From Bacteroidota bacterium (GTDB lineage Bacteria > Bacteroidota > Bacteroidia > Chitinophagales > Chitinophagaceae): a stretch of 64,000 bases of DNA. The notes under the pieces are model-generated. The model was not told the origin of the DNA. It saw nothing but the letters and a program-made list of their open reading frames with translations, and ran no database searches. Where the stretch lies: contig VGFQ01000005.1 of NCBI GenBank assembly GCA_016868815.1, positions 1 to 64,000 of the forward strand. The letters run 5' to 3'. Each line of letters begins with the position of its first letter. The stretch's first letter is position 1. Of the stretch, positions 135-15,142 are shown piece after piece. A program made the translations under genes and the position numbers.

Positions 135-1043
135 ATGAAACTAACAGCACAGGAGAAGCAGGAAGTAATTAAACTAGTGGAGGGTTCTGAACTAGGGGTT
201 CATCAAACGCTACAGAAGCTGGGTATTGCTAAAAGCACTTTTTACAAATGGTATAAGGTTTATTTAGACCAAGGGATGTTAGGATTAGAACCAAAGCCGC
301 CTGGTAATCGTAGGCAGTGGAATACCATCCCTGAAGGGGAAAGAACACTTGTAGTGGAACTGGCGTTAGAATACAGTGATTTATCTCCCAGGGAACTAGC
401 ATGTAAGCTCAGTGACACACGGGGTGTATTCATCTCTGAGTCAAGTGTTTATAGGATATTAAAGTCATGGGGATTGATCACCACACCTAAACATATCTTG
501 CTATGTGCTAGTGACTCCTTTGAAAAGAAAACCCAGTTTGTACATGAGATGTGGCAAACAGATTTTACTTACTTTAAAATCATTGGTTGGGGATGGTACT
601 ACCTAAGCACCATTATTGATGATTACAGCAGGTACATTGTCCACTGGGAGTTATGCAGCACGATGAAAGCTGAAAATGTTCAATCTAACATTGCTCAAGC
701 CTTAATAAAAGCAAAACTTAAACCTAGCCAAAGACCCGTTTTACTAAGTGATAATGGATCCTGCTATGTATCCTCTGAATTAAAGGATTATTTATCAACC
801 GTGAATATCAAATCCATCCATGGAAGGGTAATGCACCCACAGACACAAGGGAAAATAGAGAGGTATCACCGCTCCATGAAAAACATAGTAAAACTGGATA
901 ACTATTATCATCCAGAGCAGTTAGTAGATGCCATACAGGATTTTGTAGAATACTATAATCATGAACGTTACCATGAATCACTACAAAATGTCACCCCTTC
1001 GGATGTATATTATGGAAGGCAAGTACAAATACTCCCAAAATGA
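135..1043 (+). CDS. IS3-family transposase OrfB (DDE integrase core), apparently truncated by a nonsense mutation
   Basis: This is a 302-residue integrase-type transposase that would cut and join the IS ends. An N-terminal helix-turn-helix is followed by an rve catalytic core with D143 (WQTDF), D206 (LLSDNGS) and E242 (GKIERY). The last two are separated by exactly 35 residues, the classic D(35)E arrangement. The ATG at 135 is probably only an internal start: the frame is open upstream to the A8-G run, so the working product should be an OrfAB fusion. The stop at 1041-1043 is suspicious. Past it the same frame continues for 30 sense codons (ALIKQQSLKRRKQL...) to TAA 1134-1136. That tail is matched by a diverged remnant at 2172-2237, suggesting CGA became TGA. 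The catalytic triad is intact, so activity of the shortened form is uncertain. Confidence 0.9.
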   Translation: MKLTAQEKQEVIKLVEGSELGVHQTLQKLGIAKSTFYKWYKVYLDQGMLGLEPKPPGNRRQWNTIPEGERTLVVELALEYSDLSPRELACKLSDTRGVFISESSVYRILKSWGLITTPKHILLCASDSFEKKTQFVHEMWQTDFTYFKIIGWGWYYLSTIIDDYSRYIVHWELCSTMKAENVQSNIAQALIKAKLKPSQRPVLLSDNGSCYVSSELKDYLSTVNIKSIHGRVMHPQTQGKIERYHRSMKNIVKLDNYYHPEQLVDAIQDFVEYYNHERYHESLQNVTPSDVYYGRQVQILPK

Positions 1044-7285: not shown

Positions 7286-8311
7286 ATGCACCAAAAAGAT
7301 TATACAAACGTAATTGACTTACGTTATGGTCAAGATGCATGTTTTGGTCTTGGTAAAGAAATAGGAAAATTTTGTGTAATGACTATGGAAATTCCGTGGC
7401 GAATTACTAAGAATAAATTAGGGGGAAATCCTGAGATAGTTGTATTCGTAGAAACTATGGAAGAAAAATGGTTGAATAGCATCTGTGAGCAAATGCCCGA
7501 GTTCGATACGATTGTTGGTATTGGTGGTGGAATGGCAATTGATGCAGCAAAATATATATCATGGAAAAAAGGGAAACGACTAGTTAGTATTCCATCCATT
7601 TTATCGGTTGATGCATTTACAACACCCGCAGCGGGAATCAGGCGAAACCATGAAGTTGACTATGTAGGTGTTGCATCCCCCGATCCGCTGGTAATTGACT
7701 TTGGGATCATTCGAACGGCTCCACCAGAATTAAATATTGCAGGAATTGGTGACCTCCTGTCCATGCATACTGCTTCGTTTGATTGGGCGCATGCGAATTT
7801 GAAAGGAAAATCAGAATTTCCCTACTCATCCAGTTCCATCGAAAAAGCCAACAAAATCCTTCAAATGTTATACGGATTACTTGGTGACGTTCGTGAAAAT
7901 ACAGACAAGGGTCTTATGGCAATTGTACAAGGGTATATTGACTTGAACACTATATGTTTACCCATTGGGCACTTTCGTGTGGAAGAAGGATCTGAGCATT
8001 ATTTATTTTATGAACTTGAAGAGCGCCTGAAACGACCATTTGTCCACGGTTATATCATAGGATTAGGTATCTATATTATGAGTCAATTACAAGGGAATAA
8101 TTTTCCATTCATTAAAGAAGTAATGGATGAAGTTAAACTACCTTATCACCCATCCATCCTTGAGATAAAAAAAGATGATTTGTTGAAATCTCTTTTAAAT
8201 GTACGCGAATATGTTAAGTCCAGACCTAAACTTTGGTATACAATCATCAATGATACTGAAATTACTGAAGAATGGGCAGAGGCAGCATTACAGGGTCTTC
8301 ATTTTGCATAA
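7286..8311 (+). CDS. Glycerol-1-phosphate-dehydrogenase-like enzyme (Fe-ADH_2 family)
   Basis: The 341-residue protein has the two-domain dehydroquinate-synthase-like fold of the AraM/EgsA group. The NAD(P)-binding GIGGGMAIDAAKY motif lies at about 78-90, followed by the conserved SIPSILSVDAFTTPAA segment. Putative metal ligands are D156 (GIGDLLS), H238 (EGSEHYLF) and H254 (FVHGYIIG), the Asp-His-His set expected for Zn, Ni or Fe binding. Relatives reduce dihydroxyacetone phosphate to sn-glycerol-1-phosphate, but the family is broad and the true substrate here could be another ketone phosphate or cyclitol. It is the first gene of a tight operon with an APC permease (9 bp gap) and a GNAT acetyltransferase, which suggests metabolism of an amine- or amino-acid-derived compound rather than lipid synthesis. 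Composition is strongly AT-rich. Confidence 0.75.
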   Translation: MHQKDYTNVIDLRYGQDACFGLGKEIGKFCVMTMEIPWRITKNKLGGNPEIVVFVETMEEKWLNSICEQMPEFDTIVGIGGGMAIDAAKYISWKKGKRLVSIPSILSVDAFTTPAAGIRRNHEVDYVGVASPDPLVIDFGIIRTAPPELNIAGIGDLLSMHTASFDWAHANLKGKSEFPYSSSSIEKANKILQMLYGLLGDVRENTDKGLMAIVQGYIDLNTICLPIGHFRVEEGSEHYLFYELEERLKRPFVHGYIIGLGIYIMSQLQGNNFPFIKEVMDEVKLPYHPSILEIKKDDLLKSLLNVREYVKSRPKLWYTIINDTEITEEWAEAALQGLHFA

Positions 8312-8320
8312 ATATTATTA

Positions 8321-9742
8321 ATGAGTACGACTAATTCATTTGGGTACAAAGAAGAACTGAGTCGCTCGATGAATAGCTTTTCTAGTTTCGCTATATCCTT
8401 TTCACTTATTTCAGTACTGACAGGTATTTTTGCAAACTTCAATTTTGGTTATCGACAGGTTGGTGGTGGAATTATCTGGTCTTGGTTACTGGTTGCTTCT
8501 GGACAATTTTTCGTCGCACTTGTAATGGCACGTCTTTCCATTCAATATCCAATTGTAGGTTACGGATATCAGTGGGCCTCACGTCTAGTACATGTACATT
8601 ATGGTTTTTTTGTGGGATGGATTCTATTAATCCAATTCATAACCGGATTTCCAAGTATATGTAAAACGTTTGCAACCATATCGATTAATTTATTCAATCT
8701 AAATATTTCAGATGATATTCTCTCGTATATTACAATTGCTATCATTTCAGCTGTAACTTTGATTCATTTGTTAGGAATTCATGTTGTCACAAAAGTCAAT
8801 GACATAGGAGTTTTTGCAGAAATGATCGGAGTTCTGCTACTTATTTTACTGCTAATAGGTGTATGGATAATGAGTGGAAATGTAAGTCTTGCAACTCTTC
8901 AATCCTGCACGTTATTCATGAGTGAACATTCTTTACAATTTTCTTCTTTTGCACTGTCACTTTTACTGGGCGCCTGGGGACTGACCGGATTCGAAGCAGC
9001 AGCAGATCTTGCTGAAGAAACGAAGTCACCAACTACCGCTATTCCTAATGCAATTATGATTTCTCTTATATCATCATCCATATTAGGATTTCTCATACTT
9101 CTATCTTTAGTAATCCAGGCAAATGGATTCGAAAGTAATAATGAAAACCTATTAATTTCAATTCTGACAAATTCTATTGGTGTAAGACTGACAACTACAC
9201 TTTTATTATTTGTTTTGATCTCTATATTCGCATGCGCAGTTGCATCGATGGCGACGGCATCAAGATTATTATACTCATTTTCAAGAGACAAAATTCTTCC
9301 CTTTTCAACCTGGATTTCTTTTGTAGGTAAAGAGTCGAAATCTCCAAAAAATGCAATAATAGTGATTTGGGGATTTAGCTGTTTATCGATTTTAGCCCTC
9401 AAAAAGATTGAGATCATCAGCAGCGTATCAGCACTTGCCTCTTATATTGGGTACTTGGGTATTCTGATCGCTGCAATAATGAGTAAGCGAACGATCATCC
9501 AAGGCAAAGGCTATCTCTTTAATAATTTGCAACGTCCTGTACAATGGATTGCATTATGCTGGGTAATTTTTGTTATCATATCATTGTCTTATCCAGAAAC
9601 GGATGTAGATGGATTTGAGACAAAACATTTGCCTTTAATCACTACCAGTGTTTCAATAGGTATTGGTTCATTAATATATTTATTCTATGTAAGGAAAAAA
9701 ATAAATAGAGGTCTTGCAGGGCCACCCATTATCAATATATAA
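8321..9742 (+). CDS. APC-superfamily amino acid/amine permease
   Basis: This 473-residue integral membrane protein shows about 12 hydrophobic segments. The N-terminal block SFSSFAISFSLISVLTGIF followed by a GGGIIW-type loop matches the conserved TM1 region of amino acid/polyamine/organocation transporters. A GLTGFEAAADLAEETKSP segment in the middle is the typical APC consensus between TM6 and TM7. Such carriers take up or exchange amino acids, GABA or polyamines across the inner membrane. The gene sits 9 bp after the dehydrogenase-like gene, and its TAA is immediately followed by the ATG of the GNAT gene, so the three are almost certainly one transcript. Substrate is unknown. The antisense frame at 8899-9417 is a shadow. 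Confidence 0.88.
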   Translation: MSTTNSFGYKEELSRSMNSFSSFAISFSLISVLTGIFANFNFGYRQVGGGIIWSWLLVASGQFFVALVMARLSIQYPIVGYGYQWASRLVHVHYGFFVGWILLIQFITGFPSICKTFATISINLFNLNISDDILSYITIAIISAVTLIHLLGIHVVTKVNDIGVFAEMIGVLLLILLLIGVWIMSGNVSLATLQSCTLFMSEHSLQFSSFALSLLLGAWGLTGFEAAADLAEETKSPTTAIPNAIMISLISSSILGFLILLSLVIQANGFESNNENLLISILTNSIGVRLTTTLLLFVLISIFACAVASMATASRLLYSFSRDKILPFSTWISFVGKESKSPKNAIIVIWGFSCLSILALKKIEIISSVSALASYIGYLGILIAAIMSKRTIIQGKGYLFNNLQRPVQWIALCWVIFVIISLSYPETDVDGFETKHLPLITTSVSIGIGSLIYLFYVRKKINRGLAGPPIINI

Positions 9743-10252
9743 ATGAATCTTATGCAAGATATGCTTGTCAAATTATACGAACTTCCTGATTATACAGTAT
9801 TGAAAAAAAAGCTTGAAGACGACGAAATAGTATTTCGTAGACCTCTTGCTGCTGAAAAATCTATCTTGGTGAATTGGGTAAAAAAAAATTATGGATCAGG
9901 CTGGGCAAGCGAAGTAGAAGTCAGTTTTGGATATCAACCCATCTCGTCTTTCATAGCAATAAAAGAAAATTTAATCATCGGATTTGCTACTTATAATGCT
10001 GCATACCAAAATTTTTTCGGGCCAACAGCTGTTGAGGAAATACACAGGGGGAAAGGAATAGGGAAAATACTTCTCATGGATTGTTTGGATGCTATGCGTG
10101 CACAGGGTTTTGCTTATGCCATCATTGGAGGAGTAGGGCCAGCCGAATTTTATACAAAATCAGTCGGAGCTGAGTTGATCAAGGGAAGTAATCCAGGAAT
10201 TTATAGAGGCATAATGAGTGATGTCCCCTACGAAGTGAGGGAATCACATTAG
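9743..10252 (+). CDS. GNAT-family N-acetyltransferase
   Basis: The 169-residue protein carries the GNAT acetyl-CoA site: VEEIHRGKGIGKILLMDCL (about 97-115) is motif A with the R-G-K-G-I-G pyrophosphate loop, preceded by the FIAIKENLIIGFATY strand pair. Later AYAIIGGVGPAEFYTKSVGA corresponds to motif B. It would acetylate an amine using acetyl-CoA in the cytoplasm. Translation starts directly after the permease stop with no spacer, implying coupling. Together with the permease and the dehydrogenase-like enzyme, it may modify a transported amine or the product of the reductase. The natural substrate cannot be told from sequence. Confidence 0.85.
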   Translation: MNLMQDMLVKLYELPDYTVLKKKLEDDEIVFRRPLAAEKSILVNWVKKNYGSGWASEVEVSFGYQPISSFIAIKENLIIGFATYNAAYQNFFGPTAVEEIHRGKGIGKILLMDCLDAMRAQGFAYAIIGGVGPAEFYTKSVGAELIKGSNPGIYRGIMSDVPYEVRESH

Positions 10253-12585: not shown

Positions 12586-12661
12586 TCGGCATTGAAGTGA
12601 TCTGCTAGAGCGGTCTTGACGAAGGGTGATGTCGTCTCACTGAAATTTACTATTTTACTTG

Positions 12662-15142
12662 ATGGTGTACCACCCCTTCTATTTTATGAAGCATCGTTTC
12701 CTGCTTTTTTCTTTTCAACGACTGGGACTGCCCGGCCTACGGGGTTTCGTGTTTGGGTTGTCTCTCCTGCTGACTGTACCGGCCTGGGCGCAGGCAGCGG
12801 ATGCCCATGGAGTTTACTGGCTCTGGCGGTTTCTGGGTCGCCTGCATCCGATGGTGGTGCATTTCCCCATTGCATTGATCTTTGGGGTGGTGCTTTTCGG
12901 TGCCATAGACCGTTACAGTCAGACGGAGCGCTTCCAGGCCACCCACGGCATCCTGCTCATATCAGCCTGTGTCACCTCCCTTTTATCGATGTTGTTGGGT
13001 CTGCTGTTGTCGAATACGGAGACGTATGACGCCGCTGCTTTGCCCTGGCATCAATGGTCGGGCATCCTCACAACTCTTCTGGTCGTAATGGCCACCTGGC
13101 TGCATCATCGCCACCGGCGGAATGCTGCCTGGCTAGTGTCCATACTCGCCGTGGCAGGAGTGACGGTGACCGGGCATTTCGGCAGCGAGCTGACACACGG
13201 GCCTGGATACCTCAGCAGCGTCATGCCAACTGGTGACGCACCGACTTCTGAAGAAGAGCTGGCCGTCCGTTTCATACCCTTGAAGGGCGGCCTCGATGAT
13301 GAGCAGCTGCAGATGCTGAATGTGCAGGTGCGCTCGATCTTCGCCCACAAATGCTATAGCTGTCATGGGCCTACTCGGATGAAGGGAGGGCTCCGTCTCG
13401 ACACCCAAGAAGGTATTTTTTCCGGGGGAGAGCATGGCGTGGTGGTCAAGGCTGGAGCCCCCGCTGCCAGCGAACTCATTCGGCGCGTGCGCTTGCCGCG
13501 GGGGCATAAGGATGCCATGCCCACCAAAGGCAATGGGCTGACCCCGGAGGAGGTAGAAGTCCTGAGCTATTGGATAGAGAAAGGGGCGCCATGGCCCAGC
13601 GGCCCCGTACGCAGCCTGTTCCGGACGGCCGTGCTGGAGCCGCGACTGCCACCCCTCCCTCCGGTCGTAGATGGGCATGAAAAACCCCTCGACCGATTCG
13701 TAGGTCAATACTTCCGACAGCATGGCATCGACTGGGAGGAGCCCGTCGAGGACAGAATCTATATCCGACGCGTATATCTCGACGCCATCGGACTGTTGCC
13801 GCCACCTGACAGCGTAGAGCGGTTTGTAGCCGACCCTTTGCCGGCGAAACGGGCGGCACTGGTGCGAACACTCCTTAATCGAGATCATGACTATACTCAA
13901 CATTGGATTAGCTTTTGGAATGATGCCTTGCGCAATGACTACAGTGGTCCCGGGTACATCACCAACGGCCGAAAGGACATCACCCGATGGCTCTATACAT
14001 CGCTGCTCAACAACAAGCCCTATCATGATTTTGTGCGTCAACTCATCGATGCTGAGGCTTCTTCCGAAGGCTTCATCCGCGGCATCCGCTGGCGCGGTGA
14101 AGTGAATGCCAGCCAGCAGGTAGAGATGCAGGCGGCACAGAATGTGTCGCAGGTCTTTTTTGGGTTGAACCTCAAATGCGCTTCCTGCCACGACAGTTTC
14201 ATCAGCGACTGGAAGCTCGAAGATGCCTATGCCTTTGCCAACCTATTTGCCGACTCGCTGCTGCAGATCCATCGATGCGACAAGCCCACGGGTCGGGTGG
14301 CCGGTACGCGGATGCTGTATCCGAAACTGGGTGCCATCGACTCGTCCGCCGACCGAAAGGAGCGGTTGCGGCAACTCGCTGAGATTACGGTTCAACCGGC
14401 CAACGGGAGACTGTATCGCACGCTTGTCAATCGCATCTGGGCGCAGCTTATGGGTAGGGGGATCGTGGAGCCCGTGGATGCGATGGACAACAAACCCTGG
14501 AGCCAGGACCTGCTCGACTGGCTTGCCTGGGACTTCGTAGCGACCGGGGCCGACATGAAGAAACTGCTCTTCACGATTCTTACGTCGGATGCCTACCAGC
14601 AGCCGTCTGTAGCAGTCGGTCAGCCGGAGGAGATCGCCTCGAAGGATTTCGTCTTCCGCGGGATGCTGCGTCGCAGGATGAGTGCCGAGCAGTTCATCGA
14701 CGCCATCGGGGCTACGCTGGAGCCCGTCTATGCCGACAGTCTGATCGAGCGCAGGCGTCTTCCCGACGGCATCCAGTACTGCATACCTTTCACGAGGGCC
14801 TCGTTGGTGATGAACGACCCCTTCCAGAAATCACTCGGCAGGCCGACACGCGAGAACGTCTCCACGGGGCGCATCTCGCAGGCCAGCCTGTTGCAGGCTT
14901 TGGAGCTTACCAATGGAGGGCAATTCCATGAAACCCTACGGAAGGCAGCCGTCCGGACGGCAGCGGAGGCGGACCCGATGGGGGTAGTCGACAGGATATA
15001 CCGTCGCATGCTGGGCCGCCTGCCTTCGGACAAGGAGCGGAGGCTGCTCCGGCAGCGATTGGACGATCGGTCATCCGTATCCGATTGGGAGGATCTCCTA
15101 TGGGCCATGGCCCTCCATCCGGAATTCCAATTGATCCGGTAG
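12662..15142 (+). CDS. DUF1549/DUF1553 protein with N-terminal DUF2231-like membrane domain and cytochrome motif
   Basis: The 826-residue protein starts with a signal or anchor and several TM segments; HPMVVHFPIALIFGVVLF (about 62-79) resembles DUF2231. A PSCyt1-type domain with a CYSCH haem motif follows near residue 230. DUF1549 comes next, with a second CASCH near residue 506, and then DUF1553 (NRIWAQLMGRGIVEPVDAMD). These domain sets are abundant in Planctomycetes and also occur in Bacteroidota, nearly always beside DUF1501 genes, as here. They are thought to be periplasmic redox proteins linked to glycan or sulfated-sugar breakdown, but no biochemical activity is established. ATG 12662 and ATG 12686 are both possible starts. 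A strong hairpin follows the stop. Confidence 0.85.
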   Translation: MVYHPFYFMKHRFLLFSFQRLGLPGLRGFVFGLSLLLTVPAWAQAADAHGVYWLWRFLGRLHPMVVHFPIALIFGVVLFGAIDRYSQTERFQATHGILLISACVTSLLSMLLGLLLSNTETYDAAALPWHQWSGILTTLLVVMATWLHHRHRRNAAWLVSILAVAGVTVTGHFGSELTHGPGYLSSVMPTGDAPTSEEELAVRFIPLKGGLDDEQLQMLNVQVRSIFAHKCYSCHGPTRMKGGLRLDTQEGIFSGGEHGVVVKAGAPAASELIRRVRLPRGHKDAMPTKGNGLTPEEVEVLSYWIEKGAPWPSGPVRSLFRTAVLEPRLPPLPPVVDGHEKPLDRFVGQYFRQHGIDWEEPVEDRIYIRRVYLDAIGLLPPPDSVERFVADPLPAKRAALVRTLLNRDHDYTQHWISFWNDALRNDYSGPGYITNGRKDITRWLYTSLLNNKPYHDFVRQLIDAEASSEGFIRGIRWRGEVNASQQVEMQAAQNVSQVFFGLNLKCASCHDSFISDWKLEDAYAFANLFADSLLQIHRCDKPTGRVAGTRMLYPKLGAIDSSADRKERLRQLAEITVQPANGRLYRTLVNRIWAQLMGRGIVEPVDAMDNKPWSQDLLDWLAWDFVATGADMKKLLFTILTSDAYQQPSVAVGQPEEIASKDFVFRGMLRRRMSAEQFIDAIGATLEPVYADSLIERRRLPDGIQYCIPFTRASLVMNDPFQKSLGRPTRENVSTGRISQASLLQALELTNGGQFHETLRKAAVRTAAEADPMGVVDRIYRRMLGRLPSDKERRLLRQRLDDRSSVSDWEDLLWAMALHPEFQLIR

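Follow-up and report, generated by a model that had tools for sequence, protein, structure and literature searches.

Three adjacent genes, encoding a dehydrogenase (DH), an APC permease, and a GNAT acetyltransferase, lie within the first 12 kb of the 64,000-nucleotide stretch of Bacteroidota DNA analyzed here (the window; Table 1). The tight spacing described in the original prediction is reproduced by the coordinates: 9 bp separate the DH from the permease, and the gap between the permease and the GNAT is 0 bp, with the permease TAA directly abutting the GNAT ATG. The AT-rich setting that had been claimed for the trio is likewise borne out, both within the window and against further stretches of the genome. 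In 2-kb windows, GC content is 0.30 to 0.45 over the first 12 kb and 0.49 to 0.62 from 12 kb on; 9 further stretches of the same genome, from 8 contigs, have GC contents of 0.51 to 0.59 (7 stretches), 0.50 (one), and 0.39 (one). GC3 is 0.28 to 0.31 in the trio. Two more genes from the AT-rich segment have values of 0.45 and 0.50, whereas two genes past the boundary reach 0.70 and 0.73. The region is compositionally foreign and sits at a contig end, and the contig itself starts with a transposase gene. A gene of the fatty-acid-hydroxylase family adjoins the trio on the opposite strand. A Bacteroidota-type promoter pattern occurs only at chance level, and sigma-70-like and terminator-like sites are in no excess over shuffled counts.

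Table 1. Genes of the trio and their Pfam matches
Gene	Position	Strand	Length	Pfam match (score; cut-off)
DH	7286-8311	+	341 aa	Fe-ADH_2 (64.6 bits; 28)
APC permease	8321-9742	+	473 aa	AA_permease_2 (150.6; 27)
GNAT	9743-10252	+	169 aa	Acetyltransf_1 (31.7; 20.7)

The trio extends beyond one strain, and its presence in four genomes of the genus rules out a strain-specific set. The DH is found in 4 of the 38 genus genomes searched (37 including its own, plus G454, which lacks it). The GNAT is present in 4 of 41, exactly the four that contain the DH, and in all four the three genes are adjacent. The order is DH-permease-GNAT in the window genome (G000), G001, and G026, but permease-GNAT-DH in G028. 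In this last genome, the contig end encodes 52 residues that match the C-terminus of the window permease (alignment score 123; the maximum in 500 shuffles was 44), and the permease stop and the GNAT start share an ATGA overlap. Estimates of pN/pS (0.17 to 0.30), which support selection on the trio, come from genes whose synonymous sites are close to or at saturation. The foreign composition and contig-end position in G000 might suggest that three unrelated genes have come together by chance on an imported island. However, four genomes have the trio side by side, two gene orders are represented, the set occurs at low GC (G001, G026) as well as high GC (G028, where the GC3 of the DH is 0.85), and the DH-permease pair recurs in another phylum. 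Because of the permuted order in G028 and this recurrence, a chance neighborhood, already contradicted, deserves almost no credence; the trio is a genuine unit.

The DH clade is present in 32 of the 68 Hydrogenedentota genomes searched. The permease is found in one of these 68 (G841), where a protein of 44% identity is encoded directly behind a DH after an 89-bp gap. The GNAT is found in none of 12 non-Bacteroidota genomes checked (0 of 7 non-Bacteroidota and 0 of 6 Hydrogenedentota genomes, with G794 common to both sets). Counting toward linkage, the GNAT of G385 (64-65%) and the DH homologue of the same genome are about 12.4 kb apart on an 8.16-Mb contig. The idea of a fixed three-gene pathway is not supported, since Hydrogenedentota DHs are mostly without the permease and the GNAT is missing from the 12 genomes. 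DH neighbors show no conservation over 20 Hydrogenedentota regions and 7 further loci; in 7 of these 27, ORF calling missed the DH frame in favor of longer opposite-strand frames. A search of 392 Planctomycetota genomes for the permease at E 1e-70 yielded no positive at all and is uninformative by itself. Carriage by a phage or plasmid, also considered, is unsupported: one scan of viral contigs found no relative, four phage records match at 24-35%, plasmid DH matches are all below 60% identity (25-31% among the matches listed), and plasmids gave no match to the permease at E 1e-30.

The original prediction assigned the DH an NAD-binding loop and an Asp-His-His metal set, and both are present: the loop as GIGGG at residues 78-82, and the ligands as D156, H238, and H254. 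Together with the Pfam score and the fold, these features place the protein in the Fe-ADH_2/DHQ synthase-like superfamily. Its confidently predicted structure (pLDDT 92) is nearest, among solved folds, to glycerol-1-phosphate dehydrogenase (G1PDH) and 3ce9 in Foldseek. Within the superfamily it belongs to a distinct clade marked by MTMxIPW and EEGSEH-x3-Y. The metal site of the window DH reads EEGSEHYLFY and contains Glu234 and Tyr242, a pair shared by 35 of the 36 clade rows that have data and by none of 10 references. All seven G1PDH-type references have instead the pattern S-G-x-[EC]-H-x3-H, which is absent from the window DH, and the three GldA references have Leu and Asn at the positions of Glu234 and Tyr242.

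It could be argued that the DH is nonetheless a true G1PDH serving ether lipids, with neighbors that are unrelated to it. NF002022, the G1PDH equivalog, is its best NCBIfam model by E-value (3e-38), G1PDHs are among the top Foldseek matches, and the gene next door on the other strand belongs to the fatty-acid-hydroxylase family. However, the DH scores only 131.7 bits against NF002022, under the curated cut-off of 413, and its metal site carries Ser-to-Glu and His-to-Tyr replacements. In the tree, a 97/99 branch parts the DH clade (17 rows) from the 10 references (G1PDH, AraM, GldA); the four PDB references entered it as fragments, and the software flagged long branches and unusual composition. 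There is also a precedent: a haloarchaeal protein annotated as G1PDH is a glycolaldehyde reductase with no notable activity on G1P (PMC9700705). Because of the NF002022 score, the tree, and the metal-site residues, the DH, as judged from its sequence, is not a true G1PDH, and the ether-lipid explanation is very improbable. The clustering with true G1PDHs that would have undercut the original view does not appear in the tree. In NCBIfam scans of 7 clade members, the top-scoring model was G1P dehydrogenase every time, each below cut-off; consequently, members of this clade could pass for archaeal-type lipid genes in bacteria, a naming that these tests argue against.

The GNAT belongs to its superfamily by an Acetyltransf_1 score above gathering and by RGKGIG in the alignment, which fits R-G-x-G-x-G, the acetyl-CoA loop motif. 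With a pLDDT of 59.6, its predicted structure was not good enough for fold searching. Among PDB profiles, the GNAT matches 5kf1 best, with a whole-chain E of 3.5e-4 and a weak best stretch (E 0.098, 32 positions); 5kf1 is GlmA, according to PMC10936415. Several relatives lie in a context of peptidoglycan recycling: L037 adjoins Amidase_2-GHL10-MFS-GH3, L028 adjoins GH20, and L030 follows, at a distance of about 1 kb, a segment containing MurQ, NamZ, and GH3. The trio itself lacks such a context. Overall, 5 of the 10 neighborhoods fetched are clearly related to peptidoglycan or chitin, three of the 5 coming from one genus, while other readable ones are sugar-transport or thiamine loci; the S. 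meliloti example adjoins thiamine genes. An upstream gene in G026 that by eye resembled a NagX-type acetyltransferase has no supporting Pfam match.

These neighborhoods bear on the possibility that the trio provides detoxification or self-protection, with the GNAT inactivating a toxic amine (an inhibitor resembling an amino sugar or aminocyclitol), the DH altering it, and the APC protein exporting it. An accessory trait of this kind would suit the patchy GNAT (4 of 41 genus genomes), the AT-rich location, and the transposase at the contig start. However, no PADLOC model matched the DH or the GNAT, and a single one, labelled "AA transporter", was matched by the permease (37 bits, E 7.4e-10). 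Of the 10 neighborhoods of GNAT relatives, 5 concern recycling and the other readable ones sugar transport or thiamine, and no resistance gene was recognized in the part of their neighbors that was scanned. Detoxification is considered unlikely.

The reading we prefer, with a probability of roughly 0.45, is that the trio forms a small operon that takes up and modifies a hydroxy or keto compound carrying an amino group, with an amino sugar or amino polyol as the likeliest candidate. The permease, an APC superfamily protein whose AA_permease_2 match spans residues 19-428 of 473, would take in a cationic compound. The DH would then oxidize an alcohol or reduce a ketone with NAD(P)(H), and Glu234 may hold the substrate amine where G1PDH-type references have Ser. 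Finally, to judge by its relatives, the GlmA-like GNAT would move an acetyl group from acetyl-CoA onto the amine, which would thereby be trapped or turned into an N-acetylated catabolite. The acidic residue substituted at the metal site and some GNAT relatives favor the amine substrate of the original prediction; the GNAT points more specifically to amino sugars.

The same gene set could also serve the biosynthesis of an N-acetylated amino polyol, such as a compatible solute or surface component, in which the DH reduces a keto precursor, the GNAT acetylates, and the permease brings in the precursor or exports the product. The nearest characterized folds, the G1PDHs, do reduce a ketone, DHAP (PMC4244643). 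However, no aminotransferase or other biosynthetic partner is seen by eye beside the trio in the window or in the three other trio contigs, which are only 6 to 10 kb long and whose neighbors were scanned in part; biosynthesis is rated as decidedly unlikely. Returning to uptake and modification, we suggest tentatively, on the strength of sequence features, that the DH clade might represent a new activity of the G1PDH superfamily in which an amine held by Glu234 replaces phosphate, and the trio an undescribed pathway of import, redox, and N-acetylation for an amino sugar or polyol. Among the papers that a literature search on G1PDH with acetyltransferase, permease, and operon matched, no title or abstract opening mentions such a trio. 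If the amine reading is true, the superfamily gains a substrate class, and the permease and GNAT provide a handle on the substrate of a DH clade that occurs in nearly half (32 of 68) of the Hydrogenedentota genomes searched.

The permease matches its two nearest NCBIfam models, TIGR03428 (urea-carboxylase type) and TIGR00907, over nearly the full length, but at 174.1 and 138 bits it is far below their cut-offs of 740 and 598 and is not assigned as a urea-carboxylase permease; no urea carboxylase was recognized among the neighbors scanned. GlmA, the glucosamine/glucosaminide N-acetyltransferase of C. acetobutylicum and the top PDB profile match of the GNAT, is a tandem GNAT of 328 residues, whereas the window GNAT is a single protein of 169, and the trio, in contrast to the GlmA system, has no NagZ-type gene. 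The B. subtilis AraM (PDB 9h4x), a Ni-dependent G1PDH, and C. acetobutylicum 3ce9 share the fold and metal ligands of the DH at 17% and 22% identity in structural alignments, but unlike the DH they keep S-G-[SAG]-E-H-x3-H. EgsA/G1PDH (NF002022; PDB 5fb3, 4rgq) has the superfamily, fold, NAD loop, and D-H-H metal set in common with the DH (Foldseek E 2e-18, TM 0.77, and 25% identity to 5fb3); the DH differs from it in falling below the family cut-off, in lying across the 97/99 branch, and in having Glu234 and Tyr242 in place of Ser and His.

Three adjacent genes, encoding a dehydrogenase of the sn-glycerol-1-phosphate dehydrogenase (G1PDH) superfamily, an APC permease, and a GNAT N-acetyltransferase, lie in a window that opens a contig of 159,792 bases in a 2.85 Mb assembly of 33 contigs. 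ORF positions confirm the coordinates of the tight operon in the original prediction, with all three genes on one strand and gaps of 9 bp between dehydrogenase and permease and 0 bp between permease and acetyltransferase.

Table. Trio genes and transposase of the AT-rich segment
Feature	Position	Strand	Assignment
Dehydrogenase	7286-8311	+	Pfam Fe-ADH_2, above curated cut-off
Permease	8321-9742	+	Pfam AA_permease_2, above curated cut-off
GNAT	9743-10252	+	Pfam Acetyltransf_1, above curated cut-off
Transposase, IS-type	135-1043		rve, HTH_32; contig's very start, AT-rich segment

A search of 60 genomes including the window's own, 37 of them from the genus, found the dehydrogenase in four, all within the genus (4/37); it was not found in one additional genus genome, G454, and these dehydrogenase counts apparently leave out G453, G455, and G456 of the 41 genus genomes. 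The acetyltransferase is present in the same four of the 41, and the permease in three (E 1e-60). Two of the genomes, G001 and G026, carry the genes in the window's order, with gaps of 6 and 9 bp and of 12 and 6 bp, respectively. In G028, the contig breaks off just upstream of the acetyltransferase gene, and the preceding 52 residues align with the C-terminus of the window permease (score 123 versus at most 44 in 500 shuffles). The stop codon of this permease overlaps the acetyltransferase start (ATGA), and the dehydrogenase gene begins 9 bp after the acetyltransferase gene. Given this permease end and the other three loci, the three genes are therefore together in 4/4 dehydrogenase-bearing genus genomes, in two gene orders. 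The linkage of the three families holds in all four of these genomes; the window's order is shared by three and permuted in G028 (permease-acetyltransferase-dehydrogenase). Selection on the genes is purifying (pN/pS 0.17-0.30, rough ratios with synonymous sites near or at saturation); together, the conserved linkage and purifying selection indicate that the trio genes work. In wider samples, the dehydrogenase appeared only in its own genome and G026 among 394 genomes of the family (E 1e-40), and only in its own genome and G385 among 395 of the class (E 1e-50). A phylum sample of 395 yielded the acetyltransferase in five, including its own, the others at 40-53% identity.

The trio had been placed in AT-rich imported DNA. 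The AT-richness is plain: GC is 0.30-0.45 over the first 12 kb of the window and 0.49-0.62 over the remainder, and GC3 is 0.28-0.31 in the trio, 0.45 and 0.50 in two other genes of the segment, and 0.70 and 0.73 in two genes past the boundary. Among nine further stretches of the genome, seven have a GC of 0.51-0.59. AT-rich stretches also occur elsewhere in this genome (L108, L110, and L112; GC 0.29-0.39, other samples mostly 0.51-0.59): C4:1-15000 has a GC of 0.39, the opening 2 kb of C12 (1-2000) 0.29, and C5:104001-118000 0.50, with 0.33-0.34 in its first 4 kb (104001-108000). A chimeric contig end in the draft assembly would explain the AT-rich start, and is less likely given that another sampled AT-rich stretch sits within contig C5. 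The trio contigs of G001 (GC 0.41) and G026 (0.37) resemble their hosts (0.37-0.43 and 0.39, three samples each), and that of G028 (0.61; dehydrogenase GC3 0.85) matches its host at 0.57-0.62. The trio therefore seems native to the genus, and composition suggests that an AT-rich relative was the source of the window's copy. The segment also contains a 77-nt direct repeat (1088-1164 and 2189-2265, 87% identity) flanking an ORF at 1168-1779 with a below-threshold DUF4337 match. A planctomycete-type cytochrome with DUF1549/DUF1553 domains lies at 12659-15142; the genome's relatives are Chitinophagaceae MAGs.

The window dehydrogenase scores 131.7 against the G1PDH model, versus a cut-off of 413. 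The solved structures nearest to its AlphaFold model (mean pLDDT 92) are the G1PDH 5fb3 and the enzyme 3ce9. As had in part been proposed, the enzyme was placed in a tree with G1PDH, AraM, and GldA references. A set of 47 rows was thinned to 17 from the clade and 10 references, and a 97/99 branch sets every clade row apart from the references; the tree program flagged long branches and unusual composition, and the four references taken from the PDB are fragments. In the 47-row alignment, the metal site reads S-G-x-[EC]-H-x3-H in 7/7 G1PDH-type references, follows a separate pattern in three GldA references, and reads E-G-[SA]-E-H-x3-Y in 35 of the 36 clade rows with data (L051, which has none at this motif, is left out). 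We infer that Glu234 of this motif meets the substrate amine. Functional shifts of such a kind are known, since a haloarchaeal protein annotated as G1PDH turned out to reduce glycolaldehyde and to show no notable activity on G1P (PMC9700705).

The one exception to the motif is in G385, a same-class genome of 9.5 Mb. Its acetyltransferase shares 64-65% identity with that of the window and is encoded about 12.4 kb away from a dehydrogenase homologue (L010 / L011:5946-6953). In this homologue, the metal Asp is now Glu, the second metal His is replaced, and Glu234 and Tyr242 are missing; judged by these residues, it may be a non-catalytic or altered relative. A fatty-acid-hydroxylase-family gene (PF04116, 10384-11652) adjoins the window trio, and the gene next to the G385 dehydrogenase (L011:7040-7858) is weakly similar to it (27% over 147 aa), possibly by coincidence.

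Beyond the genus, a genome-contig scan with the dehydrogenase gave 10 loci: three genus genomes and seven distant ones at 30-39% identity (Planctomycetota 1, Hydrogenedentota 5, Lachnospiraceae 1). The clade (EEG[SA]EH-x3-Y) occurs in 32/68 Hydrogenedentota genomes (E 1e-60) and the permease in one (E 1e-50), G841, whose permease gene lies 89 bp downstream of the dehydrogenase gene in the same orientation; an AraC-type regulator is encoded upstream. The acetyltransferase was found neither in G841 and five other Hydrogenedentota genomes nor in the seven genomes holding distant dehydrogenases (0/12 pooled, one genome being common to both sets). No conserved neighbour of the Hydrogenedentota enzyme emerged among the regions examined (L044-L073). 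Other neighbours are diverse, including GH4-like and CoA-transferase-like genes (by eye) and a class II aldolase (Pfam); those in Lachnospiraceae are DegT, GFO/IDH, and PIG-L (Pfam) and an apparent sugar ABC transporter. Evidently, the dehydrogenase also functions without the permease and acetyltransferase in most Hydrogenedentota that bear it.

Ten neighbourhoods of acetyltransferase relatives were compared (eight at 46-53% identity, L040 at 41%, and G385 at 65%). The relative adjoins Pfam/NCBIfam-confirmed peptidoglycan/chitin genes in L037 (Amidase_2, GHL10, MFS, GH3) and a likewise confirmed GH20 in L028; in L030, MurQ, NamZ, and GH3, confirmed in the same way, lie about 1 kb upstream, interspersed with unresolved ORFs. 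By eye, L038 and L039, from the Bacteroidota genus of L037, resemble L037, and the run Amidase_2-GHL10-GNAT-MFS (AmpG-like by eye)-GH3 (Pfam for L037) is likely a peptidoglycan-recycling operon. Elsewhere the neighbours are a sugar ABC transporter (L027), thiamine genes (L026), and an S10 peptidase (L036). The best PDB match of the family profile is 5kf1 (chain E 3.5e-4; best stretch E 0.098, 32 positions), called GlmA in PMC10936415. Such enzymes, according to PMC4680927, acetylate glucosamine ends of peptidoglycan fragments ahead of beta-N-acetylglucosaminidase.

The simplest reading with all three genes is that an amino-bearing polyol or sugar would be imported, redox-converted at a hydroxyl, and N-acetylated. 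A literature search, judged by titles and abstract openings, found no operon joining a G1PDH-type enzyme, a permease, and an acetyltransferase. The trio is a new gene combination that includes a distinct dehydrogenase subfamily within a known superfamily.
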